The position numbers were made by a program, and so were the translations under genes. The notes beneath the pieces are model-generated. The model worked only from the letters and a program-made list of their open reading frames with translations, ran no database searches and was not told the DNA's origin. Source: a virus. From it: a stretch of 48,009 bases of DNA. Numbering within the stretch: the stretch's first letter is position 1; each line of letters begins with the position of its first letter. Below are positions 10,038 to 45,860 of this stretch, piece after piece. The stretch lies in the IMG/VR virus record IMGVR_UViG_3300008110_007590, positions 1 through 48,009 of that record. One strand, written 5' to 3'.

Positions 10038-10114
10038 GCGCGTGTGACGGAATTGGTATACGTACTAGTCTTAGAAACTAGGTTTTGGGGGTTCAAGTCC
10101 CTCCATGCGCACCA
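10038..10114 (+). tRNA. tRNA-Leu(UAG) with a short variable arm
   Basis: Acceptor GCGCGTG/CATGCGC, a Leu-like D-arm (GGAATTGGTATAC), anticodon loop CTTAGAA with TAG at 10072-10074, TTCAAGT T-loop, encoded CCA. The variable region is about 5 nt, not the long arm expected in bacterial tRNA-Leu. The gene overlaps, antisense, the 3' end of the adhesin reading frame. Confidence 0.75.
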
Positions 10115-12485
10115 AACATAGAAAGAGCGGGATTTTATTCCCGCTCTTTTTTAAACTATCATAGTTCTGACCTTTGTCAGCACCTACAGTAAGATTTAGA
10201 GAAACATTGTCTGTGATTTTATTCTTAGCAGTTACTTTACCTGATACAACAGTACCATATGGTTCTGTTTGAGTTGCTTTTACTTCAACTACTACACCAG
10301 GTGATACTTCGTTCTTAACACCGACATAAGGCATTGTGTATGTCTTATTTGATGCAACAGTACCACTTGATAGTAATGATGAACCAGTTTCCTCAACATT
10401 ACCAATATCACTATTAAGAACAGTCACACCAGCAAATGGTGTCCATCCTGCATACTTTTCTGGAGAATAAAATGCAAGATCAGCATATGCTGTTTTTTGT
10501 TGTGACTTAGTTTGATTAGATAGACCAAAGTTTGCAATTGAATTATTAACAATATAATTACCAATTCCAAAACCAATTGATCCTTTTACGTCTACAACAT
10601 CAGACTTATTTAACACATAAGCAGTTGCTGCATATGTATCACCAGTTACAGATGAATTGTTAAGACCGCTTGATGCGACCTTACCGGCTGAACCTGCAAC
10701 ACCTGCAGTAACATTTTCGACAGTCTTTTGATAACCAAAGTTTACATTAGTACTACCAATATTATTACCAGAAGACAATGAAACATCAGCCCATGATCCT
10801 TCTGGAATACCTAATGGATCGACAAAGAATGGTTTTACTATTGCATTATTGTATGCACTATTTCCACCACCAACATAAGCAGTTTCTTCTACATTAGCAG
10901 TATCAAAAGTAACAGTACTTACAGTAGTGGTTGTTGTTACAGGTGTACCGTTAGTAGTTACTGTAGAACCATCACTGTAAGTATCTACAGTAGTAGGTGT
11001 TGTAATAGTAACAGTAGTTGTTGGTGTTGTGTGAGCAGTTACAGTAGTTTGTGTGATAGTCTTTGTGTCACCAGAAGATGCTGCAGTATAATTTACAGTA
11101 TCTTGTGATACAGTTGCACCAACAGTTGATGTTGATGTAACGATATCAGCACCTGGTGCGGTGCTTACTATTGTAGGTGTACCACTACCACCTCCTGAAT
11201 TGTTAGGAGCATTACTTCCTGGATTAGGAGCAATAGGACCAAATGCAACACCGTGATCAAGAGTTGTACCTTGATATTGAGTTACAAAAAGAATAGGACT
11301 TAGAGCAGTATCTGAAAGATTGAATGATCCAAAGCCTAATCTGTATGTTCCGTTTTCATTAACAAGATAAGTTGCAAGTTGCCATCCAGTAGCACCATAT
11401 GATCCTACTGAATAGTTACCAGTTCCTGCATTAGTAAATCCAAGAAGAGCATATTCTTTATTTTCACCATTTACAGTTGCAACTGTAGTACCAGTAGTAT
11501 TAACAAGAGATGTTAAGCTACCATCATTAAATGGTTCGTAGTCCGATGAAACATATTGCCATGCAACGTTGAATGTAGTTCCATTAGACAATACTAAATC
11601 CTGATATAACCATGCAGCATTTGTTGGAAGACCGTTGCCGGTTGCTGTCATTGCATTTTGAATTTCAGTAACACTGGTAGCACTAAGACCTAATGCAGTT
11701 GCCATTGTTTGAAAATCATTAGTTCCACTTTGTTGTGTTCCGGTTGGTTGTAAACTGACCATGTAGTCACCCGTAGGTGGTGTAATAGTCCATGAGTGAG
11801 TACCACCTGCATTAAAATTTTGCATTCCTTGGACTACAGCAACACCAACACCAGTACCTGTATAAGAAGATGTTTGTGTTCCAGTGCCACCACCAGAAGT
11901 CCAACCAGTTAGATCACCAGTTGCAAAATTCATATTAGTTGGGTTGCTAACACTGCTCCCTGAACCACTACCAGAACCAGAACTTGCAGTTTGACCTGCA
12001 GCTAATGGAGTTGTACTTGCCCATGTATAACTAGTAGTATCAGTACCAGATACAGAAGTGTCCATGTTAGTAAAACTTGCATTATCACCATAATTATAAC
12101 CAGCTGATGTTGTGATTACTGTGCCAAAGAAGCCAGAACCAATATAAAACAATGCATCTGGACCAATAGCTTGAAGTGTACCAGTATCATGCAGCACTTG
12201 TGCAAGAGTACCATCACTGTTATAAAGACCTAGACCATAAGTCCCTGGATTAGTAGTACTATTAAAGAATTGAAAGTATTGACCAGAAGTTACAGTAGGA
12301 TGAGTAAAGTTCTGATCATATGGAGCAATAAAGTTAGAAGCGTTAAGAGTAGTTCCTGACCAATAATATTGCACATCGAATATTTGATTTGTACTAAATT
12401 GCCCGTCGGCAATATCAGCTTTAGCAACAGTCAATGTAGAAAGTACTGCCACAAAAGCTATAGCTATTTTACGTAAAAAAGACAT
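10071..12485 (-). CDS. autotransporter-like outer-membrane surface protein
   Basis: About 804 residues, start at 12485 after GAGGGAA. Residues 1-23 are a signal peptide (cleavage after AKA). A long Ser/Thr/Gly-rich passenger follows, including a Gly/Ser linker near residue 180 and a Thr-rich stretch (TTVTITTPTTVDTYSDG) near 510. The last ~250 residues alternate polar and aromatic residues as in an autotransporter beta-barrel (ADVSLSSGNN, MPYVGVKNEVSPGVVVEVK). Predicted function is surface display by the infected host, for adhesion or receptor masking. No stop occurs before the frame enters the terminator and the antisense of tRNA-Leu, so the true C-terminus is uncertain: a barrel should end near GQNYDS, and the ~25 extra residues may reflect a lost stop. 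Confidence 0.65.
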   Translation of the reverse strand: MSFLRKIAIAFVAVLSTLTVAKADIADGQFSTNQIFDVQYYWSGTTLNASNFIAPYDQNFTHPTVTSGQYFQFFNSTTNPGTYGLGLYNSDGTLAQVLHDTGTLQAIGPDALFYIGSGFFGTVITTSAGYNYGDNASFTNMDTSVSGTDTTSYTWASTTPLAAGQTASSGSGSGSGSSVSNPTNMNFATGDLTGWTSGGGTGTQTSSYTGTGVGVAVVQGMQNFNAGGTHSWTITPPTGDYMVSLQPTGTQQSGTNDFQTMATALGLSATSVTEIQNAMTATGNGLPTNAAWLYQDLVLSNGTTFNVAWQYVSSDYEPFNDGSLTSLVNTTGTTVATVNGENKEYALLGFTNAGTGNYSVGSYGATGWQLATYLVNENGTYRLGFGSFNLSDTALSPILFVTQYQGTTLDHGVAFGPIAPNPGSNAPNNSGGGSGTPTIVSTAPGADIVTSTSTVGATVSQDTVNYTAASSGDTKTITQTTVTAHTTPTTTVTITTPTTVDTYSDGSTVTTNGTPVTTTTTVSTVTFDTANVEETAYVGGGNSAYNNAIVKPFFVDPLGIPEGSWADVSLSSGNNIGSTNVNFGYQKTVENVTAGVAGSAGKVASSGLNNSSVTGDTYAATAYVLNKSDVVDVKGSIGFGIGNYIVNNSIANFGLSNQTKSQQKTAYADLAFYSPEKYAGWTPFAGVTVLNSDIGNVEETGSSLLSSGTVASNKTYTMPYVGVKNEVSPGVVVEVKATQTEPYGTVVSGKVTAKNKITDNVSLNLTVGADKGQNYDSLKKSGNKIPLFLCLVRMEGLEPPKPSF
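10122..10152. terminator. bidirectional terminator between tRNA-Leu and the adhesin
   Basis: AAAGAGCGGGA (10122-10132) pairs with TCCCGCTCTTT (10139-10149), followed by more T. It ends the plus-strand tRNA transcript. On the minus strand it lies inside the open adhesin frame. Confidence 0.85.
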
Positions 12486-12660
12486 GTTTATTCCCTCATT
12501 GGTTGAACATTTTAATTCAATCAATCAGTCATTCATAATGATATAAACATGATTAAATTGCGCGAATCTTATAATTTATTTCAAGCGCACATAATTATTC
12601 AGTTGAAGTTAATAATCAACTCCTATATATTTAGGTATTATGTGTAAAATGGAGACTTAT
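12486..12660. other. divergent intergenic region
   Basis: This spacer separates the minus-strand adhesin from the plus-strand sugar cluster. It holds an inverted repeat AGTTGA (12601-12606) / TCAACT (12616-12621). A TATAAT word at 12570-12575 has no matching -35. I find no exact late box for either direction, so both transcripts' promoters remain unassigned. Confidence 0.35.
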
Positions 12661-18353: not shown

Positions 18354-19091
18354 ATGGGTATTGATATTTCGTGTTTGAACTTTATTGCTGATCATAAACA
18401 ATATGTAAAAGGCAAAACACTGCAGATTGGAAGACAAGGTCTCCACTATGCAGGTTCCTGGGCAGATAGATCTGGCAGGAAAGCAGCAATTAGTAATAAA
18501 ATTTTATCAGACCATGACATTAATTTTACAGCAGAAGATACTGTTAATGGTGGTGATGGTCATACAGAAAAACTATTTAGACTACTAGGTGCTGATAGTG
18601 TAGATACAATAGATTATTCACCTTATGAAGGTTGTTCTATAGTTCATGATATGAATAAACCAGTCGACGAGATATACCATAATACTTTCGATTATATTTT
18701 AGACGCAGGTACTATTGAACATATCTATGATATTAAAACAGTGATTGATAATTACAAAATTATGCTAAAGGTAGGTGGGGTAGTAGCAATTATTACCACA
18801 TGTAATAATTTTGCAGGACATGGTTTTTATCAATTTAGCCCAGAATTTTTTAGAACAGTTTTTTCAGAACAAGCAGGTTATGAACAACTTAGTTTGGACA
18901 TTTATGAATTGACTTCAGATGAATCGTTTGACATGTATCATATACCTGAACCTAAAAAAGGTGATAGACAAGAATTTAAAACATCACCTAACTCACACTA
19001 CATAGCATTTGCTGCAAAAAAAATTAAAGATGTAAATAATAATAATAATTTTCAACAAAGTGATTATTTAAAAGTATGGGGCGAATTGTGA
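18354..19091 (+). CDS. class I SAM-dependent methyltransferase-like protein
   Basis: A 245-residue protein. A degenerate motif I (KTLQIGRQGLHYAG, near 21-34) is followed by VDTIDYSPYEG (motif II acidic), FDYILDAGTIEHI (motif IV region) and MLKVGGVVAIIT (post-motif). It is typical of methyltransferases acting on small molecules or sugars in surface-glycan clusters. It begins 16 nt after a terminator and is the first gene of an overlapping series to 24621. Confidence 0.65.
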   Translation: MGIDISCLNFIADHKQYVKGKTLQIGRQGLHYAGSWADRSGRKAAISNKILSDHDINFTAEDTVNGGDGHTEKLFRLLGADSVDTIDYSPYEGCSIVHDMNKPVDEIYHNTFDYILDAGTIEHIYDIKTVIDNYKIMLKVGGVVAIITTCNNFAGHGFYQFSPEFFRTVFSEQAGYEQLSLDIYELTSDESFDMYHIPEPKKGDRQEFKTSPNSHYIAFAAKKIKDVNNNNNFQQSDYLKVWGEL

Positions 19092-19930
19092 GTAGTCTAG
19101 TACTAGGATCTATTACCTCTGATCTTACTTGGGATAAATGTAAATTTTGGGTTAATTCTCTTAATCAAAGCGGCTATTCTGGGGATAAACTTATTATTAT
19201 TTTTGGTGACAATAAAGAACTTGAACAAAAATTTGAACAAAATAATTTTGAAGTAATTTCTCTGAGAAAATTAGAACCTAATGAACATGTCTGTGTTGTA
19301 AGATTTTATGTTTACTATGCAATACTACAAGATAGAAAAGAAAAATATGATTTTATTATTACTACGGATGTTACTGATGTGATCTTTCAGAAAGATCCCA
19401 GCAAATACGTTTATTTTAGTTTAATAGATAGTATATCAACTAAACATATTATTTCTTCTTCAGAAAATATAAGATATAAAGATGAGGTATGGGGTGCTAA
19501 TAATATGAAATTAGCATTTGGTGAAGAAGTGTATGAGAAGTTAAAAGACATCTCAATATACAACGCTGGAGTTATGGCTGGTAAAACTGAAGCTATGAGT
19601 GATCTTTTCTTCTCGATCTACTCTTTATGTACTGGAAAACAACAACATGTACCTGGTGGTGGTGGTTCAGATCAAGCAGCTTATAACGTACTACTCTCAA
19701 CTATCCCTTATAAACTAATTACTCGTTATGTAAGTCATGATAGTGGCTGGGCTTGTCAAGTAGGTACAGTTGCAGACCCATATAAAGATTATTCGAGAGT
19801 TAATATTGAAGCTAATCCTAAATTTGAAAACGGTATGGTAAAAACTTCTTCAGGTATTGATTATTTTATAGTTCACCAATATAATCGTAATTCGATGTGG
19901 AAACAATCTATAGAAGAAAAATACAGATGA
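19088..19930 (+). CDS. glycosyltransferase-like protein with DxD-type site
   Basis: A 280-residue protein. I favour GTG 19088, overlapping the upstream stop (GTGA) with GGGG ahead; an in-frame ATG at 19076 has no ribosome site. YDFIITTDVTDVIFQKDP gives the acidic metal-binding region of GT8/PF03407-like enzymes, ISIYNAGVMAGK follows the usual NAGV acceptor loop, and VPGGGGSDQAAYNVLL the QxxxN-type helix. Cytosolic, no membrane segment. Its stop overlaps the next start (ATGA). Confidence 0.65.
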   Translation: MSSLVLGSITSDLTWDKCKFWVNSLNQSGYSGDKLIIIFGDNKELEQKFEQNNFEVISLRKLEPNEHVCVVRFYVYYAILQDRKEKYDFIITTDVTDVIFQKDPSKYVYFSLIDSISTKHIISSSENIRYKDEVWGANNMKLAFGEEVYEKLKDISIYNAGVMAGKTEAMSDLFFSIYSLCTGKQQHVPGGGGSDQAAYNVLLSTIPYKLITRYVSHDSGWACQVGTVADPYKDYSRVNIEANPKFENGMVKTSSGIDYFIVHQYNRNSMWKQSIEEKYR

Positions 19931-30695: not shown

Positions 30696-31334
30696 ATGAA
30701 GAAGCTACTTATTACTGCAGCCGCTATTGCTTTTGCAACTGGCGCATATGCTACAGACCTTCCTAATAAGAAGGCCGCTCCTGCAGCAACTGCAGCAGCA
30801 CCTGCAGCATCTGCAGACAATACGATTTCAGCTGGATATGGTTTCGACTATAACACAGGTGAATATAGCAAGTCAACTGCTACTAACTATTCTGTAGCAT
30901 ACTCACGTAATCTCGGCGGTGGCTTTTCAGCAGGCGTTGCTGCTGGAACATCACAGGCAGCTGATGCCGGAGCATTGAAGCAGACTATTGAAGCACAAGC
31001 TGGCTATAAGCTTCCAGTTTTTGCTGGTTTTACTGCTAAGGCTGGTGCAGGCATTGGTCAAAGATTTACCAGTGGTGCCAATTATGGCTACTATGCACTT
31101 CGTGCAGGTATGGACTACAGTCTTACTGATAACATTGTTATCAATGCTGCCAACTATCGTTATCGTAACTCATTCGATGCTGCTTACAGCTATGAGTCAC
31201 AACAAGTTGGTACAGGCTTGACTTACAAGTTTGCTAAGGATCAATCAGTAAACATTTCAGCAGCTCGTTCATATGACAAGAGCTGGACTTCTACTGGAGA
31301 TTCAGTAACAGTAGGTTATGCACTTAATTTCTAA
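30696..31334 (+). CDS. Omp25-like outer-membrane beta-barrel
   Basis: A 212-residue protein with a signal peptide (1-20, after AYA). The mature N-terminus (TDLPNKKAAPAATAAAPAA) resembles alphaproteobacterial Omp25/Omp31 proteins. From residue ~45 alternating beta strands run to a final VTVGYALNF, whose terminal Phe is the BAM recognition residue. It predicts an 8-strand barrel in the host outer membrane. AAGGAG lies upstream and a terminator-like hairpin follows at 31416. Possible roles are receptor masking against superinfection or envelope repair; inferred. Confidence 0.7.
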   Translation: MKKLLITAAAIAFATGAYATDLPNKKAAPAATAAAPAASADNTISAGYGFDYNTGEYSKSTATNYSVAYSRNLGGGFSAGVAAGTSQAADAGALKQTIEAQAGYKLPVFAGFTAKAGAGIGQRFTSGANYGYYALRAGMDYSLTDNIVINAANYRYRNSFDAAYSYESQQVGTGLTYKFAKDQSVNISAARSYDKSWTSTGDSVTVGYALNF

Positions 31335-31380
31335 TAAAATAGTTTGAAAAAGTTTTATAAATCTTTCATAAAAACGTGAA

Positions 31381-31414
31381 ATTTCATAAAACTTTCATAC
31401 TAGGGATCTATATA
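31381..31414 (+). promoter_or_regulatory. Pho box and -10 element of pstS
   Basis: ATTTCATAAAACTTTCAT (31381-31398) matches the PhoB consensus of two CTGTCAT repeats separated by 4 bp at 15 of 18 positions. A third copy (CTTTCAT) lies at 31363-31369. TATATA (31409-31414) follows 10 bp after the box, the canonical spacing in which the Pho box replaces the -35 element. The predicted start is near 31421. Confidence 0.8.
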
Positions 31415-31443
31415 AGGGACGGGAGAAATCTCGTCCCTTTTTT
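31415..31443 (+). terminator. terminator overlapping the pstS transcription start
   Basis: GGGACGGGA (31416-31424), a GAAA tetraloop and TCTCGTCCC (31429-31437), then a T-run. It can stop transcripts from the upstream barrel gene. The predicted pstS start near 31421 lies inside its 5' arm. Confidence 0.85.
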
Positions 31444-31461
31444 ATTAACTCAGGAGTTAAC

Positions 31462-32385
31462 ATGTTAAAGAACATTCTTGCCGTAATCGGATCTATGTTT
31501 ATCGCTACTTCAGCCTTTGCAGGTGAAGTTAATGGTGCAGGTGCTACTTTTCCACAACCAATTTATGTAAAGTGGGCAGATAGCTTTAAGAAAGAAACTA
31601 ACAACGCTGTAAATTATCAGGGAGTTGGTTCTGGTGCAGGTATCAAGCAGATTGATGCAAAGACAGTAATATTTGGTGCAACTGACATTCCAGTAAAGCC
31701 AGAAGACCTTGAAAAGAAAGGTCAAGTACAGTTTCCTATGATCGTTGGTGGTATCGTTCCTATCTTTAATCTTAAAGATGTAGAACGCCTTACTCTTACT
31801 GCTGACATCCTAGCAAAGATTTATTCAGGTAAAATTACAAAGTGGAATGATAAAGAAATTGCAGAAATCAATCCTGGCGTAAAGCTTCCTGATCTCGGTA
31901 TCATTAAGATTCGTCGTTCAGATGGTTCAGGTACAACTTGGAACTTCACAAAGTTTCTTTCTGAAGCAAATGCTGATTGGAAGAAGAACTACGGTTTTGG
32001 TTCAACTGTAGAATGGGCTGGTAACACAATCGGTGGTAAAGGAAATGATGGTGTTGCAAATAATGTATACCAAACTAATGGTTCGATCGGTTACGTCGAG
32101 TATGCATTTGCCAAGCAAAACGACCTACAAGTTGCTGATATGATTGGTACAGATGGTAAGAAGGTATCACCAGGTCTTAAAGCATTCCAGTCAACTTGGC
32201 CAATGGTTGCAACTTCATATATCGTAATGCACAAGCAGAACGATGATGCAGCTGCAGTTGCAATTGCAAAGAAGTTCTTTGAATACGGACTTGCACACGA
32301 TAAGGATGCAGAAGCACTTGACTATATTCCATTGACAGCTGCACAGAAAGCAGAAGTCAAGAAGACTCTCTCAAGTGTAAACTAA
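31462..32385 (+). CDS. pstS: periplasmic phosphate-binding protein PstS
   Basis: A 307-residue protein with a signal peptide (1-20, after AFA) and a CAGGAG ribosome site. GAGATFPQPIYVKWADSF, GVGSGAGIKQI, IFGATDIPV and RRSDGSGTTWNFTKFLS are the classical PstS phosphate-binding blocks. It is the substrate-binding subunit of the high-affinity ABC phosphate importer, and would work with the host's PstCAB. Phage PstS is known from marine T4-like phages and raises phosphate uptake during infection. A Pho box upstream implies control by the host PhoB under phosphate starvation. Confidence 0.93.
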   Translation: MLKNILAVIGSMFIATSAFAGEVNGAGATFPQPIYVKWADSFKKETNNAVNYQGVGSGAGIKQIDAKTVIFGATDIPVKPEDLEKKGQVQFPMIVGGIVPIFNLKDVERLTLTADILAKIYSGKITKWNDKEIAEINPGVKLPDLGIIKIRRSDGSGTTWNFTKFLSEANADWKKNYGFGSTVEWAGNTIGGKGNDGVANNVYQTNGSIGYVEYAFAKQNDLQVADMIGTDGKKVSPGLKAFQSTWPMVATSYIVMHKQNDDAAAVAIAKKFFEYGLAHDKDAEALDYIPLTAAQKAEVKKTLSSVN

Positions 32386-32714: not shown

Positions 32715-32722
32715 GATAAATA
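32715..32722 (+). promoter_or_regulatory. late promoter GATAAATA of the packaged-protein operon
   Basis: GATAAATA follows the terminator directly and lies 26 bp before ATG 32748. The variant equals that at 5958. Confidence 0.6.
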
Positions 32723-32747: not shown

Positions 32748-33425
32748 ATGCATACTTTCCTCTCTTTTATTACAGAAGCACATGCCAAAGGCGGCTTTGA
32801 TTATGAAGAAAAGATTAACAAGCATCTAGAAAAACATGGTGTATTAACACCTGGACACACATCTGCCGGTTCGAGTGGTGATGCTCCAGATTCAAGTATC
32901 CATGTTGGTGGTAAAAATCATAATCTTGAAATTAAGAAAGATAAGAATGCTATGATGGGTCAATTAGAACTCCATCATCACCCAGATAAGGGTTGGCATA
33001 TTAGTGAAAAATCTAAAGAAAAATATCCTGCAACAGCTGCACATATTGAGAAGTCAGGATTTCTCCATCATGTGAATAAGCAATGGGGTAAACCTTCTGG
33101 TGATTATCACAAAGATCTTAAGATGGGTAATGTGTATCATACAGAAAAAGGTTCTGCAGGTATTCAGGCTCATTATGGTCAAGATAGAAAAACACCATAC
33201 ATTCATATCGGTGGTCATGGAACTTATCATACTGGTAAAGATGTTGCTAAAACAGGTGTGCCTGAACTATCTGGTGACACACAACTTAGAGCACGTATGA
33301 AAGCAAGAAGCACAGATAAAGCAACTGGTAAGAGAAAATACGGTGCTCTTATTGTTATGAGTTTAAAAAATGCCGATAAGTCATCACATGATCTTGAGAA
33401 AGATCCATCATTCTTAAAGAAGTAA
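32748..33425 (+). CDS. capsid-targeted PD-(D/E)xK nuclease-like protein
   Basis: A 225-residue protein; ATG 32748 follows TGGAGAATCC, so the TTG at 32712 is rejected. MHTFLSFITE resembles the T4 capsid-targeting sequence, with predicted gp21-type cleavage after ITE (residue 10). Next, GGFDYEEKINKHLEKHG, an Asp near 45-48, LEIKK (Glu61-Lys63) and GQLEL (Gln72) follow the order of a RecB/Hjc-like PD-(D/E)xK nuclease. PYIHIGGHGTYHTG and RARMKAR are conserved in marine phage relatives. It is His-rich (about 9%). If packaged, it would enter the host with the DNA and could cut host DNA or process phage ends. Inferred. Confidence 0.6.
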   Translation: MHTFLSFITEAHAKGGFDYEEKINKHLEKHGVLTPGHTSAGSSGDAPDSSIHVGGKNHNLEIKKDKNAMMGQLELHHHPDKGWHISEKSKEKYPATAAHIEKSGFLHHVNKQWGKPSGDYHKDLKMGNVYHTEKGSAGIQAHYGQDRKTPYIHIGGHGTYHTGKDVAKTGVPELSGDTQLRARMKARSTDKATGKRKYGALIVMSLKNADKSSHDLEKDPSFLKK

Positions 33426-33426
33426 A

Positions 33427-34074
33427 ATGTTAACTTTTTTAACTTATATTACAGAAGAAGCAGGTGCTAAATTAAAGCATCTAGATCACCCCGAAGATAA
33501 TGCAGTATTGTCTCATCAAGGCTTTACACATGCATTTCATGCTTTACATGATGTTCATAAGGCATTAAAAGGTCAAAAACATTCTTCTCATATTACAACT
33601 AAACTAGATGGTTCACCTTCTGTAGTATTTGGACATCATCCAGAGTCAGGTAAGTTCTTCGTTGCATCTAAGTCAGCATTTAATAAGAATCCTAAGATTA
33701 ATTATTCACATTCAGATATAGAAAAGAACCACGGTCATTCACCTGGTCTTGCAAAGAAATTAGGACAAGCATTAGAACATCTTCCTAAGGTAACTCCTAA
33801 GAAGGGTGTTTACCAGGGTGACTTTATGCACTCACATGATGAGATGCATCATACTGATCACAAAGTAAGTTTTAAACCAAATACTATTACCTATTCTATT
33901 CATAAAGGATCAGAAGAAGGTAAGAAAGCTGTTAACTCAAAAATTGGAGTTGCTGTCCATACAAAGTATGAAGGTAAGACTCTAGAGGGTATGCATGCTA
34001 CACCTCATGTAGATCATCATAACTTTAAACAGCATAAAGATGTTCATTTAATTTCACCTGAGGCTAAACTATGA
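33427..34074 (+). CDS. N-terminal half of a DUF6267-like protein, capsid-targeted, KxDG motif
   Basis: A 215-residue protein beginning MLTFLTYITEE, a T4-like capsid-targeting sequence with cleavage predicted after ITE. TTKLDGSPSVVFG has the KxDG motif (Lys59-Gly62) of covalent nucleotidyltransferases (DNA/RNA ligases and capping enzymes), GKFFVASKSAFNKNPK follows as a core strand, and KGVYQGDFMH and YEGKTLEGM may be later motifs. I recall this sequence as DUF6267, where it forms one protein with the next ORF. It is extremely His-rich (about 13%). Ligase-like function is inferred from one motif. Confidence 0.6.
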   Translation: MLTFLTYITEEAGAKLKHLDHPEDNAVLSHQGFTHAFHALHDVHKALKGQKHSSHITTKLDGSPSVVFGHHPESGKFFVASKSAFNKNPKINYSHSDIEKNHGHSPGLAKKLGQALEHLPKVTPKKGVYQGDFMHSHDEMHHTDHKVSFKPNTITYSIHKGSEEGKKAVNSKIGVAVHTKYEGKTLEGMHATPHVDHHNFKQHKDVHLISPEAKL

Positions 34075-34604
34075 GTAATCTATCTAAAGAACAATCTGAT
34101 GCTTTTGAACATCATATGGCAAAAGCAAAAGAATTACATGATAAGATGCCTCATGACTTCCATAATGTTGTAAATAAACATTCAGAACATCTTACTACAT
34201 ATATTAATCAAACAGTAAGATCTGGTGATAAGCCTACTACTAAAGGTTTACGTTCACATATTCAAGCAAGACATCAAAAAGCAATCGATAGTGTTTCTAC
34301 TCCTACTGCAAAAGCAAAGAAGAAAGAAACAATGAATGCTGATCTTAAACATCATGATGAGAATGAAAAGCATTTTGATAATGCATTAAAATTACACCAT
34401 CATATTCAGGCTGCTAAAAATATTCTAGTTCATGGTTTGAACAAAGCGAATAAAACTGAAGGTGGAATGGAGCATCATATTGATGGTAAAGAAACACATC
34501 CAGAAGGATATGTTGCACATCATAATGGTGGATCAATTAAATTAGTCAATAGAGGTGAGTTTTCAGCAGCTAATTTTGCTGCTACTAAAGCATGGAAAAA
34601 ATAA
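34071..34604 (+). CDS. C-terminal half of the DUF6267-like protein
   Basis: A 177-residue protein overlapping the upstream stop (ATGA at 34071). It starts without a capsid-targeting sequence. Its end, HHIQAAKNILVHGLNK and EGYVAHHNGGSIKLVNRGEF then SAANFAATKAWKK, corresponds to the C-terminus of single-chain homologues as I remember them. About 12% of residues are His. The frame boundary has no slippery heptamer, so coupled reinitiation is more likely than frameshifting. It could assemble with the N-terminal half. Confidence 0.6.
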   Translation: MSNLSKEQSDAFEHHMAKAKELHDKMPHDFHNVVNKHSEHLTTYINQTVRSGDKPTTKGLRSHIQARHQKAIDSVSTPTAKAKKKETMNADLKHHDENEKHFDNALKLHHHIQAAKNILVHGLNKANKTEGGMEHHIDGKETHPEGYVAHHNGGSIKLVNRGEFSAANFAATKAWKK

Positions 34605-35957
34605 ATGGCTCAGTATAGACGCGATACTAAAAGATTTTTAGCCGACGGTAATACTATATTTGAAGTCGTAATGACTGCTGATAGTAATGGTGCCTTTTAT
34701 GATGAATATAATAGATTTCCAGTAGCATTAGAAGCAGGACAATCAGACGCATTTGGTAGATTAAGAACATCAGATGCATTTACTTTAGGTGATTACAAAC
34801 ATCTTTATGGTATTGATCCTGCATTTGAAGATATTTTAGCAGCAAACGGCACAGTAACTTTTTTACCTAATCAAGCTTGTGCACGTCTTACTACTGCAAA
34901 CAATTCAACCAGCAGCGTTGTTCACCAGACAAAATTCTACCATCAATATTTGCCAGGCAAGAGTCAGTTAATTAAAACTACTTTTAATTTTTATGGTGCA
35001 AATACCAATGTTACTAAACGCACAGGTTATTATGATGATAACAACGGTATTTACTTTGAACAAGCTGGTAACGGTCAAATAAGTTTTTGTATTAGAACTT
35101 ATACTGGTGGTTCACCCGATGATAGCAGAAAAGTTACACAGGCTGATTGGAATGTAGATACTTGTGATGGAAACGGTCCTTCCGGTTTTAATATTGACAT
35201 TACTAAAACACAAATTGTTTTTATAGATTTTCAATGGCTGGGTGTTGGTAGAGTTCGTACTGGTTTTGTTCATGATGGTAAGTTTATACCCGCTCATGAA
35301 TTTTATAATAGTAACAACCTAGATAAAGTTTATATGAGTAGTCCCAATCTACCAATTAGATGTGAGATATTTAATACGGGTACAAGAACAGCTAATGCTT
35401 ATATGGATCAGATATGTTCTACAGTAATATCTGAAGGTGGTTATCTAGAATCAGGTCAAGATTTTGCATGGCATAGTGGGCTAAGATTACTTGCAGGTGG
35501 TAATACAACACCGATTATGGCTATTAAATTAAAGGATACCTTCAACGGCTATTCAAACAGAATGATTGCAAGATTAGGCAATATTACTATTCTTTCTACT
35601 GATGAGAATGTTAGATATGATGTAATTAAACTTGCAAATACGTCAGTAATTACAGGTGGTTCTTGGGTGGATGTTCATCCTTCTAGTGGTATACAGTATA
35701 ATGCAACAGCTACTAATTATAATGACGGTGAAGTAATGGATGGTGGATTTGCTGCTGCTAATAATCCAAGAGCTGCTTCTACTACCTCATCATCAGGTAT
35801 AACAAATCCAAATATGCCAAGTACAGCTAAAAAGAACTATATTGCTCAAAATTACTACAGCAACAATTCACAAGTATTTGTTGTCACTGCTACCAATCTT
35901 TCTTCATCAAATTCGACATATGTCGGTGTAAACATGCAGTGGCGTGAAGTTTATTAA
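34605..35957 (+). CDS. virion structural protein
   Basis: A 450-residue beta-rich protein starting directly after the preceding stop. The N-terminal DEYNRFPVALEAGQSDAFG and RLRTSDAFTLGDYKH are a conserved opening of marine T4-like structural proteins. Later, NFYGANTNVTKRTGYYDDNN and TQIVFIDFQWLGVGRVRTG, then FVHDGKFIPAH, are sandwich-like strands. The C-terminus ends NMQWREVY. Probably a capsid decoration, neck or tail-associated protein. Exact position in the virion unknown. Confidence 0.65.
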   Translation: MAQYRRDTKRFLADGNTIFEVVMTADSNGAFYDEYNRFPVALEAGQSDAFGRLRTSDAFTLGDYKHLYGIDPAFEDILAANGTVTFLPNQACARLTTANNSTSSVVHQTKFYHQYLPGKSQLIKTTFNFYGANTNVTKRTGYYDDNNGIYFEQAGNGQISFCIRTYTGGSPDDSRKVTQADWNVDTCDGNGPSGFNIDITKTQIVFIDFQWLGVGRVRTGFVHDGKFIPAHEFYNSNNLDKVYMSSPNLPIRCEIFNTGTRTANAYMDQICSTVISEGGYLESGQDFAWHSGLRLLAGGNTTPIMAIKLKDTFNGYSNRMIARLGNITILSTDENVRYDVIKLANTSVITGGSWVDVHPSSGIQYNATATNYNDGEVMDGGFAAANNPRAASTTSSSGITNPNMPSTAKKNYIAQNYYSNNSQVFVVTATNLSSSNSTYVGVNMQWREVY

Positions 35958-35961
35958 GAAC

Positions 35962-35969
35962 AATAAATA
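35962..35969 (+). promoter_or_regulatory. late-promoter-like AATAAATA
   Basis: AATAAATA lies 29 bp before ATG 35999, at the end of the preceding gene. Confidence 0.5.
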
Positions 35970-35998
35970 TAAAATAACAATTTCAAAAGAGAAATATA

Positions 35999-38900
35999 AT
36001 GTCAGATCAGAATAAAGACAACAATCAAAACACACAGGTTAGCTCAAAAAAGCTTAAAACTACTGTTGTTAAAGACGTTATTTCCAAGTCAAGAACTATG
36101 ACTGGTTCTAAACCTGATCAAATCACTATTAATCCTATTCAAGAAGAAAAAGAGAAAACAGCAGTTATGGCATTTGGCCGTTATAACCCTCCTACTGTTG
36201 GACACGAAAAGCTTATTCATAAAGTAGAATCGGTAGCTTCAGAACATAAAGGTGATGCACATATTATTGCATCACATTCTGAAGGTAATGGTAAGAATCC
36301 TCTTCCTAAAGAGAAAAAAGTAGGTTATCTTAAGAAGGTAGTTAAACCAACTACTTCTGTATCTTCTTCTGATAAAGAACACCCATCCTTCTTACATCAG
36401 GCTAAGAAACTGCATGATGCTGGTTACCATCATTTAGTAATGGTAGCGGGTTCAGACCGTGTAGATGATTATCATAAGAAACTTCATCAGTATAACGGCA
36501 AAGAAGGTCATTATAATTTTAAGTCAATTAAAGTGGTTTCTGCAGGTCATAGAGATCCAGATGCAGAAGGTACTGAAGGTATGTCTGGTACTAAGATGCG
36601 TGAACATGCAAGATCAGGTAATATGAAAGCATTTAAATCAGGTCTTCCGAAAGCATTGCATTCACATGCTGAAGAAATTGCTGATCACATTAAATCCATT
36701 AAAGAAGATCTAGACGATTTATTTGATGAGTTGTTTACAGAAGAAGAACAACTAGACGAAATTACTCTTCAACAAAGAATGAAGAGAGCAATGATTATGC
36801 GCCGCTACCAAAGCCGTATTGAATTAGCTAGAAAACGCTCTATGTTAAGAAGAGCAAATACAAAAGTTATTACAAACAGAGCACGTAAACTTGCAATTAA
36901 AAAGATGAAATCAAAACTAGCAGGTGGTCGTGATCCTGAATCTCTTTCTGCTGCAGAAAAACAGAGAATAGAAAACATTGTTTCAAAGAGAAAAGCAGCA
37001 ATCCGTAGACTAGCAATGAGACTAGTACCTCAGGTTAGAAAAAAAGAATCAAGAAGATTTACAAAAGAAGATCTTGATATATCAAATCTATTAGAGTCAT
37101 ACGAATTTCTAAATGCAATTTATGATGTAGTAATAGAAGATATAGACCGTAGTAACACCCATAAAAGAGAATGGGGTACATCATCTTTGACTAAAATATA
37201 CAAAAACGATACACCCGGTGAAAAAGAAATAGAAGAAGCAAAAAAAGAAATAGCAGTTGAAGATGATGTTACTCTTGCAGTCAATGCAGTAAAGAATAGA
37301 TATAATCCTGATTTCTTTAAAAGAATGCGTGAAAAAGATGCGTTAGATAAAGAAATAGAAATGGCTGCAAAAGAGAATGTAAAAGAAGATCTAGATAATG
37401 TTTTTGATGAGCAATTTGGTAAAAATAGAGAAGCAGTTCCTCGTTCTGGTCAAGAACGTAAAGATATAGATCTAGTAGTTAGAAAAGGTGAAGATCGTAA
37501 AACAGATGATAGACCTTATCGTCATCAAGCTATTAAAAAGCAAATAATTGATGAACAACCAGAAGCATCTTTTGGTAAAGGTCCACCTAGCAACATGTCA
37601 TCACCTTCAAATGATACTGCTAAACAGGCTTTAAAATTACCAAAAGCTACTATACCAGATTTTAAATCAAAAATACCTTTAAAGTTACCTAATGTAAATG
37701 ATTATACTCCAGATATGTTTAAATCAGAAGCATATGGTAAAGGTTATAAATCACCGTGGGAAAAAATAGAGAAAGCAAGACCAGGTATTGGTAAGAAAAT
37801 AGATACTGCAGCAGCTGCTTTAAAGCAAAACGCTGCAGACTATCAGGCTATTATTGATAAAGAAAATAAAAAAAAAGAAGTAAAAGAAGATCTCCGCCAG
37901 TGGTTTAAAGATAAATGGGTCCGCATGGACACTAAAGGTAATATTAAAGGTGATTGTGCAAGAGAACCAGGTGAAGGTAAACCAAAATGTCTTCCTATTG
38001 CAAAAGCAAGAGCAATGGATAAAGATGATCGTGCATTAGCTGCACGTAGAAAAAGAAGAGAAGATCCAGTAGCTGACCGCCCTGGTAAAGGTGGTGCACC
38101 TATCAACGTAAGAACAGAAGAAGTAGAAATGACTCCTTCAGGTCAGGTTACATTTGGTAGTTATACTACTAAGCACTTTGATATATGTCCAAGTGCAGTA
38201 AAATTGTACACAGGTATAGAAAATAAAACACAGATGTCTCATCTTGCAGTTGAGAATATGATGTTACATGATCTTCTGTTTAGATTAGAAAAACAAGTGG
38301 TAGCAATTGGTCACTCAGATAAAGACGATATAGAAAAAGCAGAGCATATCGCTGATCTTATTATGACTAATGCTAAACGTATGGGTTTAGAAAAAGAACA
38401 TTCTTATATTGAAGATCCTCATCTTAAAACAATTAGAGATCTCAATAAAACACAATCTGAAGCAGCAAATCCTGCACAACAAGCTGCTATTGCAATTGCT
38501 CTAATTAAAGCAGGTAAGAAAAAAGGTAAAAATCCTGGTCCTCAAAAAGAAGAAAATAATATAAAGGAAACTAAGAGTGCTCCTAAAGGTTTTCATTTTA
38601 CAAGATCAGGTAAATTAAAAAAAGGTGATGCAGATCTAGATGGTAGCGGAGGAAAGATGCTTCGTTCTGATCCTCTAGATAAACTGCGTAGCAAAATACC
38701 CCCTGTATCTGAAGAAATAATAAACGAGAAAAATAAACCTACCAACCCTGAATTATGGTCAAGAGCTAAAGCTTTAGCAAAAAGTAAGTTTGATGTATAT
38801 CCTTCTGCATATGCTAACGGCTGGGCTGCAAAATGGTATAAATCAAAAGGTGGTGGTTGGAAAAGTACAAATGAAGAAACTCTCAATGAACTATCTAATG

Positions 38901-39031
38901 AACTGATTGGTAAAGTTAACAAAATTAGAACACTTACTGGTATTAAAAGTAAAACACCTGTTGCATCCGAAACATTAAATAAAGCAGTAGAAAAAGTAAG
39001 AAGAAGAACTGATGTGGGTAAGGTAAAATGA
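35999..39031 (+). CDS. 1010-residue mosaic protein with a nucleotidyltransferase domain
   Basis: Residues ~53-230 are a NadM/cytidylyltransferase-type domain: FGRYNPPTVGHE gives TxGH with His69, and SGTKMRE (196-202) replaces ISxTxxR. Residues ~250-355 are a very basic helical region (MKRAMIMRRYQSRIELARKR). Residues ~640-710 hold WFKDKWVRMDTKGNIKGDCA, a unit seen alone in other phage proteins; ~840-1010 include FHFTRSGKLKKGDADLDGSG and NPELWSRAKALAKSKF. A KEDL motif occurs four times (Glu236, 357, 463, 630), each encoded by AAAGAAGATCT, and may mark cleavage by a prohead protease. Likely an internal head protein. The polyprotein idea is inference. Confidence 0.62.
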   Translation: MSDQNKDNNQNTQVSSKKLKTTVVKDVISKSRTMTGSKPDQITINPIQEEKEKTAVMAFGRYNPPTVGHEKLIHKVESVASEHKGDAHIIASHSEGNGKNPLPKEKKVGYLKKVVKPTTSVSSSDKEHPSFLHQAKKLHDAGYHHLVMVAGSDRVDDYHKKLHQYNGKEGHYNFKSIKVVSAGHRDPDAEGTEGMSGTKMREHARSGNMKAFKSGLPKALHSHAEEIADHIKSIKEDLDDLFDELFTEEEQLDEITLQQRMKRAMIMRRYQSRIELARKRSMLRRANTKVITNRARKLAIKKMKSKLAGGRDPESLSAAEKQRIENIVSKRKAAIRRLAMRLVPQVRKKESRRFTKEDLDISNLLESYEFLNAIYDVVIEDIDRSNTHKREWGTSSLTKIYKNDTPGEKEIEEAKKEIAVEDDVTLAVNAVKNRYNPDFFKRMREKDALDKEIEMAAKENVKEDLDNVFDEQFGKNREAVPRSGQERKDIDLVVRKGEDRKTDDRPYRHQAIKKQIIDEQPEASFGKGPPSNMSSPSNDTAKQALKLPKATIPDFKSKIPLKLPNVNDYTPDMFKSEAYGKGYKSPWEKIEKARPGIGKKIDTAAAALKQNAADYQAIIDKENKKKEVKEDLRQWFKDKWVRMDTKGNIKGDCAREPGEGKPKCLPIAKARAMDKDDRALAARRKRREDPVADRPGKGGAPINVRTEEVEMTPSGQVTFGSYTTKHFDICPSAVKLYTGIENKTQMSHLAVENMMLHDLLFRLEKQVVAIGHSDKDDIEKAEHIADLIMTNAKRMGLEKEHSYIEDPHLKTIRDLNKTQSEAANPAQQAAIAIALIKAGKKKGKNPGPQKEENNIKETKSAPKGFHFTRSGKLKKGDADLDGSGGKMLRSDPLDKLRSKIPPVSEEIINEKNKPTNPELWSRAKALAKSKFDVYPSAYANGWAAKWYKSKGGGWKSTNEETLNELSNELIGKVNKIRTLTGIKSKTPVASETLNKAVEKVRRRTDVGKVK
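36701..37893 (+). repeat. four copies of an 11-bp direct repeat inside the mosaic gene
   Basis: AAAGAAGATCT occurs at 36701, 37064, 37382 and 37883, always in the same frame, encoding KEDL. The spacing is irregular (about 320-500 bp), each copy near a change in local composition between domains. Confidence 0.7.
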
Positions 39032-39342
39032 TTACTTTTAGAGAATTTTTAGATCAATTAAATGAAGCTCTTACTTTAAGACAGAAGACTGCTGAACTTA
39101 AAGTAAAAAGAAAGAATGTTCTGGTTAAAGATATATCCAACTTTCAAGAACCAGAGCATAAGGTACACACTACTGCTTCTAAAGATGGTAATAAAGAATA
39201 CTTTAAAGATAAAATACGTGCTAAAAATAAACACGATGCAATTTTTAAAACACAAATGAAATACCATAAAATGGGATATAAAGTGCATGATGTATCTCAT
39301 AAAGGTATAGTAAAAGAGAAAAATAAAAATGAAAACCTTTAA
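39028..39342 (+). CDS. small basic capsid-targeted protein
   Basis: A 104-residue protein, ATGA overlap with the mosaic gene. MITFREFLDQLNEA is a T4-like capsid-targeting sequence, cleavage predicted after LNE (residue 13). The mature part is strongly basic (LRQKTAELKVKRKNVLVK, KDKIRAKNKHDAIFKTQMK), consistent with a DNA-condensing internal head protein or injected protein. No enzyme motif visible. It overlaps the next gene by 14 nt. Confidence 0.6.
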   Translation: MITFREFLDQLNEALTLRQKTAELKVKRKNVLVKDISNFQEPEHKVHTTASKDGNKEYFKDKIRAKNKHDAIFKTQMKYHKMGYKVHDVSHKGIVKEKNKNENL

Positions 39343-39709
39343 AGAACATTCAGAAGAAAATGGCTGTCTATTAGATGAGGAAATGGAAATTCATGAACTC
39401 ATCGAAGAAGATTTTGTTGTATCAGGTGATGAGCTTTACGAAGACTGGAACGAAATAGAAGAAGAAGCAGAACACGGTGGACGTAAAGTTAAATTAGGTA
39501 AACCATTCCTTACACCAGATGGACCAAAAAAGAGAGCTGTTTACGTTAGAAATGATAAAGGTAACGTAGTTAAGGTTAACTTTGGTGATCCTAATATGAG
39601 AATTAAAAAGAATATACCTGCACGTAGAAGATCATTCCGTGCAAGACATAATTGTGATAGTCCAGGTCCTAGACATAAAGCTAGATATTGGAGTTGTAAA
39701 GCGTGGTAA
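39329..39709 (+). CDS. capsid-targeted protein with C-terminal RARHNC..YWSCK motif
   Basis: A 126-residue protein. MKTFKEHSEENGCLLDEE resembles a capsid-targeting sequence, though less strictly (candidate cleavage after LDE). Residues ~15-55 are very acidic, then GGRKVKLGKPFLTPDGPKKR and YVRNDKGNVVKVNFGDPNM lead to a basic end SFRARHNCDSPG and ARYWSCKAW. I recall this paired-Cys C-terminal motif from many marine phage proteins; it may bind zinc or form a disulfide. Function unknown. Confidence 0.6.
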   Translation: MKTFKEHSEENGCLLDEEMEIHELIEEDFVVSGDELYEDWNEIEEEAEHGGRKVKLGKPFLTPDGPKKRAVYVRNDKGNVVKVNFGDPNMRIKKNIPARRRSFRARHNCDSPGPRHKARYWSCKAW

Positions 39710-39885
39710 CGTTTAAACAATTTATATCAGAATTATCAGTTCCAGCTGGAACTACAGGAAAAAGAAAAACATGGAATCCTCCTATGGTAGGAATTCGTAT
39801 GGCATCAGGTAAAATAGAAAGACACCCACCAGGTAAAAGTTCAAGCTCCGGAGGCGGGAACGGCGGTGGCAACGGAGGAACTTAA
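39703..39885 (+). CDS. capsid-targeted small protein with a Gly-rich tail
   Basis: A 60-residue protein with a GTG start that overlaps the previous stop. MVTFKQFISEL is a capsid-targeting sequence (cleavage after ISE, residue 10). The mature part is SVPAGTTGKRKTWNPPM, then a basic segment and GGGNGGGNGGT. Similar small proteins occur in marine T4-like phages beside the Dps-like gene. The stop overlaps the Dps-like start (TAATG). Confidence 0.6.
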   Translation: MVTFKQFISELSVPAGTTGKRKTWNPPMVGIRMASGKIERHPPGKSSSSGGGNGGGNGGT

Positions 39886-40322
39886 TGGAACAGCTTATTG
39901 AAAAACTAAAAATATTACATGCATCTAATTTTTCATTCTATCTTAAATTGCATTTCTTTCATTGGAATGTAGAGGGTCCAAACTTCCCTCAATATCATGA
40001 ATTATTTGGTGATCTTTATTCAGATGTTCATGGTAGTGTAGATAATTATGCAGAGCATCTTAGAGCATTACAAGCATATGCACCTGGTTCTCTAGGTAGA
40101 TTTTCAGCACTCAGTGTAGTAAGTGATCAATTTGAAACACTCCCTGCTAGTCAGATGATAAGAGTTGCTATGGAAGATAATACTAAAGTGATGTTTTTAA
40201 TTGGTGAATTAGATAAACTTGCTAATGAAGCAGGTGAGATAGGTCTTTCCAATTTCCTTCAAGGTCGTATGGAAATTCATAGAAAACACCAATGGATGTT
40301 AAGAGCAACATCTAAACAATAA
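39885..40322 (+). CDS. Dps-like ferritin-fold protein
   Basis: A 145-residue four-helix protein. LKLHFFHWNVEGPNFPQYHE contains the Dps-type first His ligand, and DVHGSVDNYAEHLRALQ the D..AE.lRAL ferroxidase segment; EDNTKVMFLIGELDKLANEAG and GRMEIHRKHQWMLRA are helices 3 and 4. Dps proteins oxidise and store iron and can protect DNA. Marine T4-like phages encode members of unknown timing. Here it is embedded among packaged-protein genes, so protection of DNA during packaging or ejection is plausible. Confidence 0.72.
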   Translation: MEQLIEKLKILHASNFSFYLKLHFFHWNVEGPNFPQYHELFGDLYSDVHGSVDNYAEHLRALQAYAPGSLGRFSALSVVSDQFETLPASQMIRVAMEDNTKVMFLIGELDKLANEAGEIGLSNFLQGRMEIHRKHQWMLRATSKQ

Positions 40323-44813: not shown

Positions 44814-45860
44814 ATGAGTATATTGTGGATTGATCAGAAATACGCTTCGTTACTTGGAACGCAATTACAGCAGTTTAAAGTAAAGAAAACTAAACCTTAT
44901 ATTGCACAGTTTAGATGTCCGTTATGTGGTGATTCTGCCACTAATCGTTTTAAAACACGTGGACATTTCTATGAACATAAAGGTCATATTAACTTCAAGT
45001 GTTTTAACTGTGGTGCTAGTACCACTTTAAATAACTTTATGAAATCTCAGAATACCACCTTACATACCGAATACCGGTTGGAAGTTTTAAAAGAGACGGG
45101 TGGTGCAAATAACAACATAGATAATTTTTTCGTACCTGCTATCGAGAAATTCTCTAGCAGGCGTATAGATTCTTTTGATCCTTTTAAAGAATTATCTAAG
45201 ATTTCACAGTTAAAACCTAATCACCCAGCAAAAATCTATGTACAAGAGAGAAAAATTCCTCCGAATACTCATTATCGAATTTACTACTCGCCTACATACT
45301 ACTACTGGGTAAACTCGATACTGCCAGGCAAGTTTAGCGAAAAAGCATTAGCACTTGATGAGCCACGTATAGTTTTCCCATTCATTGATTCAAAGGGTTA
45401 TGTTTTCGGTTTTACTGGTAGATCGCTTAGTAAGACCACGAACATGCGTTATTCTACAATTATCTTAGACGAGACAAAAGAAAAGGTATTTGGACTAGAT
45501 TCTATCGATAAGACTAAAAAGGTCTACGTAGTTGAAGGTCCAATTGATAGTCTTTTCTTAGATAATTGTATTGCAATGGCAGGCTCTGATATTAACTTGA
45601 ATAATATAACAGATAGAGATAAAATAGTAGTAGTATATGATAATGAACCACGAAACAAAGAAATTGTTAAGAAGATTTCAAAAGCCGTGGATCAAGGCTA
45701 TAATGTCTGTATCTGGCCAGAATTTATTGAATACAAAGATATAAATGATATGGTTTTAAAGCAGGGTCTATCTGGTCCTGCTATTCAATCTATTATTGAT
45801 TCTAATACGTTTTCAGGTCTTGCTGCAAAGATGAGACTACAACAGTGGAGTAAAGTCTAA
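44814..45860 (+). CDS. T4 gp61-type DNA primase
   Basis: A 348-residue protein. An N-terminal zinc ribbon is visible (C35-x2-C38 in RCPLCGD, and C63-x2-C66 in FKCFNCG). The Toprim core has VYVVEGPIDSLF with Glu241 and VVYDNEP with Asp276. This matches the primase subunit of the T4 primosome, which makes RNA primers with the gp41 helicase. It has AAAGGAATAGTAATA upstream and a sigma70-like promoter, so early or middle expression. Overlaps the next gene by one base. Confidence 0.85.
   Translation: MSILWIDQKYASLLGTQLQQFKVKKTKPYIAQFRCPLCGDSATNRFKTRGHFYEHKGHINFKCFNCGASTTLNNFMKSQNTTLHTEYRLEVLKETGGANNNIDNFFVPAIEKFSSRRIDSFDPFKELSKISQLKPNHPAKIYVQERKIPPNTHYRIYYSPTYYYWVNSILPGKFSEKALALDEPRIVFPFIDSKGYVFGFTGRSLSKTTNMRYSTIILDETKEKVFGLDSIDKTKKVYVVEGPIDSLFLDNCIAMAGSDINLNNITDRDKIVVVYDNEPRNKEIVKKISKAVDQGYNVCIWPEFIEYKDINDMVLKQGLSGPAIQSIIDSNTFSGLAAKMRLQQWSKV

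Follow-up and report, generated by a model that had tools for sequence, protein, structure and literature searches.

A block of tagged genes in the phage DNA fragment analysed here (48,009 nt, 48 kb; hereafter the window) most probably encodes a cargo of the T4 internal-protein type, which is packaged, cut and ejected into the next host. The predicted cargo comprises a split DUF6267 ligase-like protein, a polyprotein-like nucleotidyltransferase protein of 1010 aa, three small proteins and what may be a nuclease. Sequence comparison supports the equivalence of the N-terminal tag to the T4 capsid-targeting sequence (CTS), and packaging and cleavage of the tagged proteins are well supported by comparison with other phages. 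Cleavage in the window phage, processing of the polyprotein, injection and the roles of the enzymes in the host are what we infer.

The N-terminal tag and its gene block

Five window genes (Table 1; genes are named by number or start position) begin with the pattern M-x-x-F-x-x-F-[IL]-x-E or a variant in which the (I/L)xE is shifted, and the cleavage-type sites ending the five tags are ITE, ITE, LNE, LDE and ISE. The five similar N-termini described in the first-pass annotation were all found in place, with canonical spacing in three and a later site in two. Aromatic residues were present at positions 4 and 7 in four of the five tags, the exception being gene 39329 with His at position 7. Window genes were scored with a weight matrix trained only on families absent from the window; 4 of 60 exceeded the threshold compared with 0.1 expected from internal positions (p ~4e-6), and gene 39028 ranked fifth of 60 but stayed under the threshold. 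When the listed window proteins were scored with the full matrix, a single internal stretch, in PstS, reached a score of at least 5.

Table 1. Features of the tagged block and its surroundings (a slash marks the site).
Feature	Position	Strand	Details
ATAAATA, late-promoter-like	32716-32722	+	26 nt upstream of first tagged gene
Tagged gene 1, 225 aa	32748-33425	+	tag MHTFLSFITE/A at 32748-32777; phrog_26930
Tagged gene 2, 215 aa	33427-34074	+	tag MLTFLTYITE/E at 33427-33456; DUF6267 N-terminal half, PF19782 E 7e-62
Gene 3, 177 aa, untagged	34071-34604	+	DUF6267 C-terminal half, PF19782 E 7e-31
Virion structural protein, untagged	34605-35957	+	phrog_1645, E 1e-111
ATAAATA, late-promoter-like	35963-35969	+	30 nt upstream of 1010-aa gene
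Putative polyprotein, 1010 aa, no N-terminal tag	35999-39031	+	NMNAT/cytidylyltransferase-like domain, basic region, further modules
Glu49 codon of 1010-aa protein	36143-36145	+	INPIQE/EKEK; aligned with tag cut site of L012 NMNAT gene
Glu254 codon of 1010-aa protein	36758-36760	+	EQLDE/ITLQ; start of region that is its own gene in L076
Glu964 codon of 1010-aa protein	38888-38890	+	ETLNE/LSNE; aligned with own gene in L067
Tagged gene, 104 aa	39028-39342	+	MITFREFLDQLNE/A at 39028-39066; site moved to residue 13
Tagged gene, 126 aa	39329-39709	+	MKTFKEHSEENGCLLDE/E at 39329-39379; site moved to residue 17; body phrog_7595
Tagged small gene, 60 aa, GTG start	39703-39885	+	VVTFKQFISE/L at 39703-39732
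Dps/ferritin-like gene	39885-40322	+	same block, untagged
DNA primase (gp61-like)	44814-45860	+	downstream anchor of block, conserved in relatives

The genes had also been described as lying together behind a late promoter. The ATAAATA ahead of gene 1 agrees with this. Untagged genes make up three of the eight genes of the stretch (34071, 34605 and 35999). Window-wide, ATAAATA (the T4-type late-promoter core) is rarer than chance (14 versus 30), but 7 of its 12 forward copies lie just upstream of a gene, compared with 18% for permuted 7-mers.

A DNA search among phage records returned no near relative of the whole window. Comparison of N-termini across related phages, which had been proposed as a check, showed that the tags are kept in relatives of 82–94% identity; the L011 counterpart of gene 39703 begins MVKTFRQFLDE, and two Roseobacter phage homologues of gene 39329 (phrog_7595) are annotated HVA1. 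A first regular expression, broad and loosely spaced, was dropped because of its high background, and a tighter form and the weight matrix were used instead. A loose form of the tag pattern was found in 128 of the 1,485 genes of 83 related contigs versus 4.4 expected, and on more than 20 protein families without other similarity. With complete genomes included, matches fell into 29 clusters without other similarity, about 22 of which seem genuine. Tagged enzymes in relatives included an ADP-ribosyltransferase (E 4e-12; such enzymes are carried by L008 and G003), a RimK-like enzyme (E 3e-33), NMNAT-like proteins, a SAM hydrolase and a kinase, and the cargo set varies between close relatives. 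No prior description of the tag in cyanophages was found in a literature search of incomplete coverage. The motif is short and its site is shifted in two of the five tags, as might be expected if a few N-termini resembled each other by chance; this explanation is refuted by the counts in the relatives and in the left-out scoring, as well as opposed by the conservation of the tags, and its probability is close to nil.

Comparison with T4 and published virion data

The claim that the tag is a T4-like capsid-targeting sequence was supported by cross-prediction, by the positions that matter in IPIII, by the gp21 and gp23 sites that relatives have conserved, and by tagged cyanophage proteins that published mass spectrometry (MS) placed in virions. 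With a matrix trained without T4, gp61.1, IPII, IPIII and IPI took ranks 1–4 of 277 T4 genes. With a matrix trained without S-CREM2, and scoring from annotated gene starts, gp154, gp14, gp136, gp13 and gp6 took ranks 1–5 of 217 S-CREM2 genes; all five are in the virion by published MS, which places 52 of the 217 proteins there (p 7e-4). Tagged NMNAT-like virion proteins were likewise reported by MS in S-SCSM1 (MKSFLQFLKE) and S-SZBM1 (MRFRQFIIE). Against packaging, two tagged cyanophage proteins of about 105 aa, SSCSM1_30 and SSZBM1_191, are missing from the reported virion proteins. The strongest matrix positions were residues 4, 7, 8 and 10, the same residues that drive targeting and processing of T4 IPIII by genetics (PMC9026906). 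In T4, targeting depends on the aromatic residues at 4 and 7. The shared N-terminus might instead direct proteins elsewhere (a replication site or the membrane) or form a regulatory leader, its likeness to the T4 CTS being convergent; given that the matrix cross-predicts both T4 internal proteins and MS-detected virion proteins, and that the functional positions of T4 match, we consider this very improbable.

A search for a gp21-like protease had been proposed as a further check. No match to a gp21-type protease (Peptidase S77) was found in the 48-kb fragment by a PF03420 search, for which T4 served as positive control; gp21 was present in seven of eight related records, with GELxHP and GVSxRGxGS conserved. 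One of the relatives, G001, has gp21 with its catalytic motifs and a DUF6267 N-terminal half 82% identical to that of the window. In gp23, F-L-x-E near the T4 site is retained in Melnitz, HTVC008M and C48C1.

Alternatively, the tagged proteins would be packaged and cut but, serving as core proteins or in organising the DNA, would stay in the head and not reach the host. Virion MS proves presence only, structural virion proteins are encoded in the same block, the tagged proteins are basic in their mature form, and some of them are small and have no enzyme domain. This explanation is nevertheless judged unlikely: the tagged ADP-ribosyltransferase, RimK-like ligase, NMNAT-like proteins, SAM hydrolase and kinase have no obvious head role, the cargo varies between close relatives, and tag-bearing T4 proteins are injected (PMC12373910, PMC9391042).

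Predicted enzymes of the cargo

Enzyme-like domains had been noted in the block and were recognised as a putatively ligase-like DUF6267 protein and an NMNAT/cytidylyltransferase-like domain. DUF6267 is divided over two chains, tagged gene 2 and untagged gene 3, which overlap by ATGA; a sequencing error was ruled out as the cause of the split, since four relatives (L005, L011, L014 and G001) have an identical 4-nt overlap. Gene 2 contains KLDG (ligase motif I) and YQGD, and gene 3 contains PEGYV and KLV (motif IV/V-like). Motif I, KxDG, is nearly invariant (KYDG, KFDG or KLDG) among 18 sequences spanning the site, as are E359, G360, V362, K371 and V373 of DUF6267 in the alignment; by our own assignment, the first three would represent ligase motif IV (EGxV) and the last two motif V (K-x-[KV]). 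The best 50 VIA-align structural rows for the DUF6267 model were all nucleic-acid ligases (top Z 10.1, 6vt1), but Foldseek gave an E of only 0.35. The protein is predicted from its model to be ligase-like in fold; the tag is disordered in the model. It resembles RNA ligases (Naegleria Rnl, T4 Rnl2) in the KxDG and EGxV motifs and in these structural matches, and differs from them by a large inserted helical domain and by the two-chain split in the window. The tag is absent from the cyanophage DUF6267 homologues looked at (P-HM2, S-SZBM1), and the S-SZBM1 and S-CREM2 homologues are not in virion lists, so that these proteins give no information on packaging of the window DUF6267.

The 1010-aa protein (phrog_3041, E 2e-64) has its NMNAT/cytidylyltransferase-like domain, under the Pfam cut-off, at residues ~50–235, followed by a basic region from residue 255, and carries GRYNPPTVGH and SGTKMR, which correspond to (H/T)xGH and STxxR-type motifs. 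Judged from its sequence, it is probably a polyprotein cut at (I/L)xE junctions. Three such sites fall at separate gene starts of relatives: Glu49 matches the tag cut site of the stand-alone L012 NMNAT gene (MKTFKETLQE/ET), Glu254 opens a region encoded separately in L076 (MEDNEINE/TL), and Glu964 aligns with a separate L067 gene (MINE/ISAE). The protein shows no excess of (I/L)xE, with nine sites of a motif that is common in Glu-rich chains. Related nucleotidyltransferases are virion proteins by MS in S-CBWM1, S-SZBM1, S-SCSM1 and S-CREM2; the three examined are tagged, whereas the window domain lies inside an untagged chain. In S-CREM2 and S-SCSM1 the genes are in a block shortly upstream of the gp61 primase, as in the window, and the publications consulted link no targeting sequence to these proteins.

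In gene 1, the pattern D48...E61-x-K63...Q72 is invariant (D48, E61 and K63 compared in three sequences) and is tentatively reminiscent of PD-(D/E)xK nucleases. The nuclease reading is a lead, since no homologue above cut-offs was found by tblastn, Pfam, NCBIfam or PDB sequence searches and the AF2 model was poor (pLDDT 42).

Proposed delivery and relation to known systems

In the proposed T4-type cargo, the tagged proteins would be made late, and the N-terminal peptide of each would direct it into the prohead. A gp21-type protease would then cut after (I/L)xE, leaving the mature protein with the DNA, and would also divide the 1010-aa chain as part of the cargo. The mature proteins would most likely be ejected into the next host, acting ahead of new synthesis. 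The ligase-like enzyme would consist of one tagged and one untagged chain. A more specific version, which we regard as speculative, is a repair kit delivered with the genome against NAD+-depleting or RNA-cutting defences before phage expression, some of its components being released from a polyprotein by the prohead protease. In this kit the NMNAT-like enzyme would restore NAD+ and the two-chain RNA-ligase-like enzyme would reseal cut tRNA or DNA.

T4 IPI, IPII and IPIII share with the block the ten-residue tag, with aromatic residues at 4 and 7, Ile or Leu at 8 and Glu at 10, and basic mature proteins; IPI (MKTFKEFTSTTTPVSTITE) has a later (I/L)xE, as do genes 39028 and 39329. T4 internal proteins use gp21 cleavage, and relatives of the window phage have a gp21-type protease. 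Compared with T4 internal proteins, the cargo of the block is larger and more numerous, has enzyme-like domains and is probably in part a polyprotein; the block adjoins the gp61 primase and is carried by aquatic Kyanoviridae-like phages. T4 Alt is a head-packaged ADP-ribosyltransferase, as found also in the relatives L008 and G003, but its N-terminus (MELITELFDE) is not of the IP type, whereas the ADP-ribosyltransferases of the relatives bear an IP-type tag. Polyvalent proteins, described by Iyer, Aravind and colleagues, are large phage proteins with several domains for which injection has been proposed (PMC9503650). In contrast to these, the large chain of the block is seemingly cut at (I/L)xE junctions, and the smaller cargo is tagged singly.

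The T4 capsid-targeting peptide is known from the T-even phages of E. coli, and T4-like phages of oceans and lakes are among the most abundant viruses. The window phage and its relatives place this T4 'packing label' on a wide range of unrelated proteins, some of them enzymes. This suggests that a set of ready-made enzymes travels in the heads of widespread aquatic phages and probably reaches the host together with the DNA. The tag predicts virion cargo in these T4-like phages and would account for the NMNAT-like enzymes, kinases and SAM hydrolases in cyanophage virions. It provides a sequence rule by which more injected proteins may be found in metagenomes, and DUF6267 and other unknowns become candidates for action in the first minutes of infection.

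Tagged genes and their likeness to T4 targeting sequences

All five N-termini that the first-pass annotation had read as T4-like capsid-targeting peptides (tags) were present in the window sequence (virus record, 48,009 bases, 19 tRNA genes). The tagged block comprises eight genes, of which those at 34071, 34605 and 35999 are untagged. Tags were counted as M-x(1-3)-[FYL]-x(1-3)-[FYHI]-[ILVM]-x-E at gene starts, with internal positions as background and simple gene calling except where annotated starts served. The motif stood at the start of 128 of 1,485 called genes in 83 related contigs versus 4.4 expected; as these contigs had been retrieved via DUF6267 or gene 1 (32748), DUF6267 supplies the majority of matches. 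With seven longer genomes included, the matches formed 29 clusters with no detectable similarity beyond the tag, of which about 22 look genuine. A weight matrix from tag families absent in the window placed 4 of 60 window genes above threshold (0.1 expected), with the fifth tagged gene, 39028, next in rank and under threshold; score thresholds were set after the data had been seen, and rankings are independent of them.

For T4 and cyanophage S-CREM2, the matrix was trained on 64 aquatic-phage tags without any T4 or S-CREM2 sequence. Ranks 1-4 among 277 called T4 genes were taken by gp61.1 and the internal proteins IPII, IPIII and IPI. The top-scoring gp61.1, a hypothetical protein adjoining gene 61, carries the canonical tag MKTFKEFIKE; gp61 also neighbours the aquatic cargo block. 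The highest-weight positions were 4, 7, 8 and 10; in T4 IPIII mutants, residues 4 and 7 mainly govern targeting, and residues 8 and 10 processing (PMC9026906). Methylophilales phage Melnitz and phage C48C1 showed a like arrangement, Pelagibacter phage HTVC008M more weakly; the block lies between gp41 helicase and gp61 primase in HTVC008M and P-HM2.

Coordinates of features in the window and related records
Feature	Record	Position	Strand
817-aa open frame, no PHROG match	window	10071-12524	-
Gene with signal-peptide-like start	window	30696-31334	
The same plus PstS-like phosphate-binding gene (signal-peptide-like start), directly upstream of block	window	30696-32385	
Tagged block (5 of 8 genes tagged)	window	32748-39885	
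Split DUF6267	window	33427-34604	
1010-aa gene	window	35999-39031	
First 49 residues of 1010-aa protein	window	35999-36145	
Dps/ferritin-like gene, untagged, within cargo block; also in close relatives	window	39885-40322	
DNA primase, gp61 type	window	44814-45860	
gp61.1	T4	L172:267-431 = T4 18966-19130	-
gp12	S-CREM2	L153:4705-7314	-
~105-aa tagged protein	cyanophage	L197:1216-1536	
~105-aa tagged protein	cyanophage	OL473597 122311-122628	-
ADP-ribosyltransferase-like, IP-type tag	related phage	L008:1632-2336	
ADP-ribosyltransferase-like, IP-type tag	related phage	L136:4391-5260	
RimK-like ATP-grasp ligase	Melnitz	L096:82-1131	

Virion proteomes and the prohead protease

Matrix ranks were compared with the published S-CREM2 virion proteome (PMC10665884 Table 3). 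The top five of 217 annotated proteins, namely gp154 (cytidylyltransferase, MKNFSSFLTE), gp14 (kinase), gp136, gp13 and gp6 (SAM hydrolase, MKDFDSFLEE), were all detected in the virion by mass spectrometry (base rate 52/217, p = 7e-4; p = 5e-5 among proteins without structural assignment), and 0.07 scores of this level were expected by chance. The detected NMNAT/cytidylyltransferase was tagged in both S-SCSM1 and S-SZBM1; one tagged protein of ~105 aa in each was absent from the reported virion proteins. Those two proteins have the tag MK[TS]FK[QS]F[ML]SESVNISGDFNGNLY and lie near terminase genes. Pooled over the three cyanophages, 8 of 10 above-threshold proteins were detected versus a base of ~17%, S-SCSM1 detection being taken from the 'virion protein' labels of its record and the base count being approximate. 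The virion proteins detected in S-CREM2 also include gp12, whose annotation as Cas9 is doubtful; a tag-like LRFASFMAE occurs ~17 residues from its annotated start, which may have been set too far upstream.

The gp21-like protease anticipated in the first-pass annotation was not found in the 48-kb window, a genome fragment; it was found (Peptidase S77) in seven of eight related records, with the catalytic T4 motifs GELxHP and GVSxRGxGS conserved. These records include G001 (157,623 b), whose DUF6267 N-half is 82% identical to that of the window. The major capsid protein keeps (I/L)xE near the T4 site position (slash, putative cut): FLTE/A in T4, FLSE/A in Melnitz, FLGE in HTVC008M, FLTE/T in C48C1, LME in the related record G003 and LFE in G001. 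Because protease motifs and capsid sites are both kept, the cutting rule appears conserved within the group.

Probable enzyme-like cargo

Gene 2 (33427) and gene 3 (34071) are the two halves of DUF6267, which in most relatives is a single tagged protein of ~390 residues. The two frames overlap by 4 nt (ATGA), and the split is real, because the identical overlap recurs in L005, L011, L014 and G001. An AF2 model of one-chain DUF6267 was good (pLDDT 87; residues 1-15 disordered); the best 50 structural alignments were all RNA or DNA ligases (top Z 10.1 over 183 residues), Foldseek E-values were weak, and KxDG, EGxV and KxV were nearly invariant. We read DUF6267 as a divergent member of the ligase-type nucleotidyltransferases. 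The tagged chain carries motif I and the untagged one motifs IV and V; the chains would therefore have to assemble.

The untagged 1010-aa protein has an NMNAT/cytidylyltransferase-like domain at residues 50-235. In L012 this domain is a gene of its own, whose tag MKTFKETLQE/ETEKKAV aligns without gaps to INPIQE/EKEKTAV of the window. EQLDE/ITLQ (254) matches the start of a separate L076 gene, MEDNEINE/TL, with a one-residue gap, and ETLNE/LSNE (964) that of an L067 gene, MINE/ISAE; the Melnitz stand-alone middle-region homologue (MKKFSELTSELIE) aligned only roughly in that region. Since (I/L)xE sites coincide with separate gene starts in relatives, the protein may be a polyprotein cut by a gp21-type protease; the evidence is suggestive rather than strong, because (I/L)xE shows no overall excess in the protein and the first site reads VxE in L009 and L014. 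Its first 49 residues (..TVKDVISKSRTMTGSKPDQITINPIQE), in place of the usual tag, are conserved in L009, L014 and G001 and may represent a different type of targeting leader.

A D...ExK pattern is invariant in gene 1, whose structure model gave no confident fold. Two Roseobacter phages have homologues of 39329 that are annotated HVA1. The mature forms of the tagged proteins are basic, and those of genes 1 and 2 are histidine-rich. Tagged enzymes in relatives were ADP-ribosyltransferases in L008 (PF03496, E 4e-12) and G003 (E 5e-4, short of the cut-off) and NMNAT in L067 and L081; Melnitz has a RimK-like ATP-grasp protein (E 3e-33) with the tag MTQKFSQFITE, encoded away from the main block. The N-terminus of T4 Alt differs from the IP-type tag of the relatives' ADP-ribosyltransferase-like proteins. 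Because these enzymes carry it too, the tag resembles a packing label that can be exchanged between proteins.

Expression and proposed delivery

ATAAATA was not enriched across the window (14 versus 30 expected); 7 of 12 forward copies lay 8-80 nt upstream of a gene, versus 18% for permutations, among them the copies upstream of gene 1, the 1010-aa gene and 40397. This placement is consistent with late expression. The tagged proteins would be synthesised late, enter the prohead core through tag residues 4 and 7, and be cleaved by gp21 after residue 10 (or 13 or 17); the mature basic protein would stay with the DNA and be ejected into the next host. Comparison with T4, together with the virion proteomes of relatives, gives good support to the early steps; ejection and a role inside the host we infer from T4, where proteins bearing this tag are injected and inhibit restriction enzymes (PMC12373910, PMC9391042). 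We hypothesize that the NMNAT-like and ligase-like cargo is suited to repairing damage from host defence.
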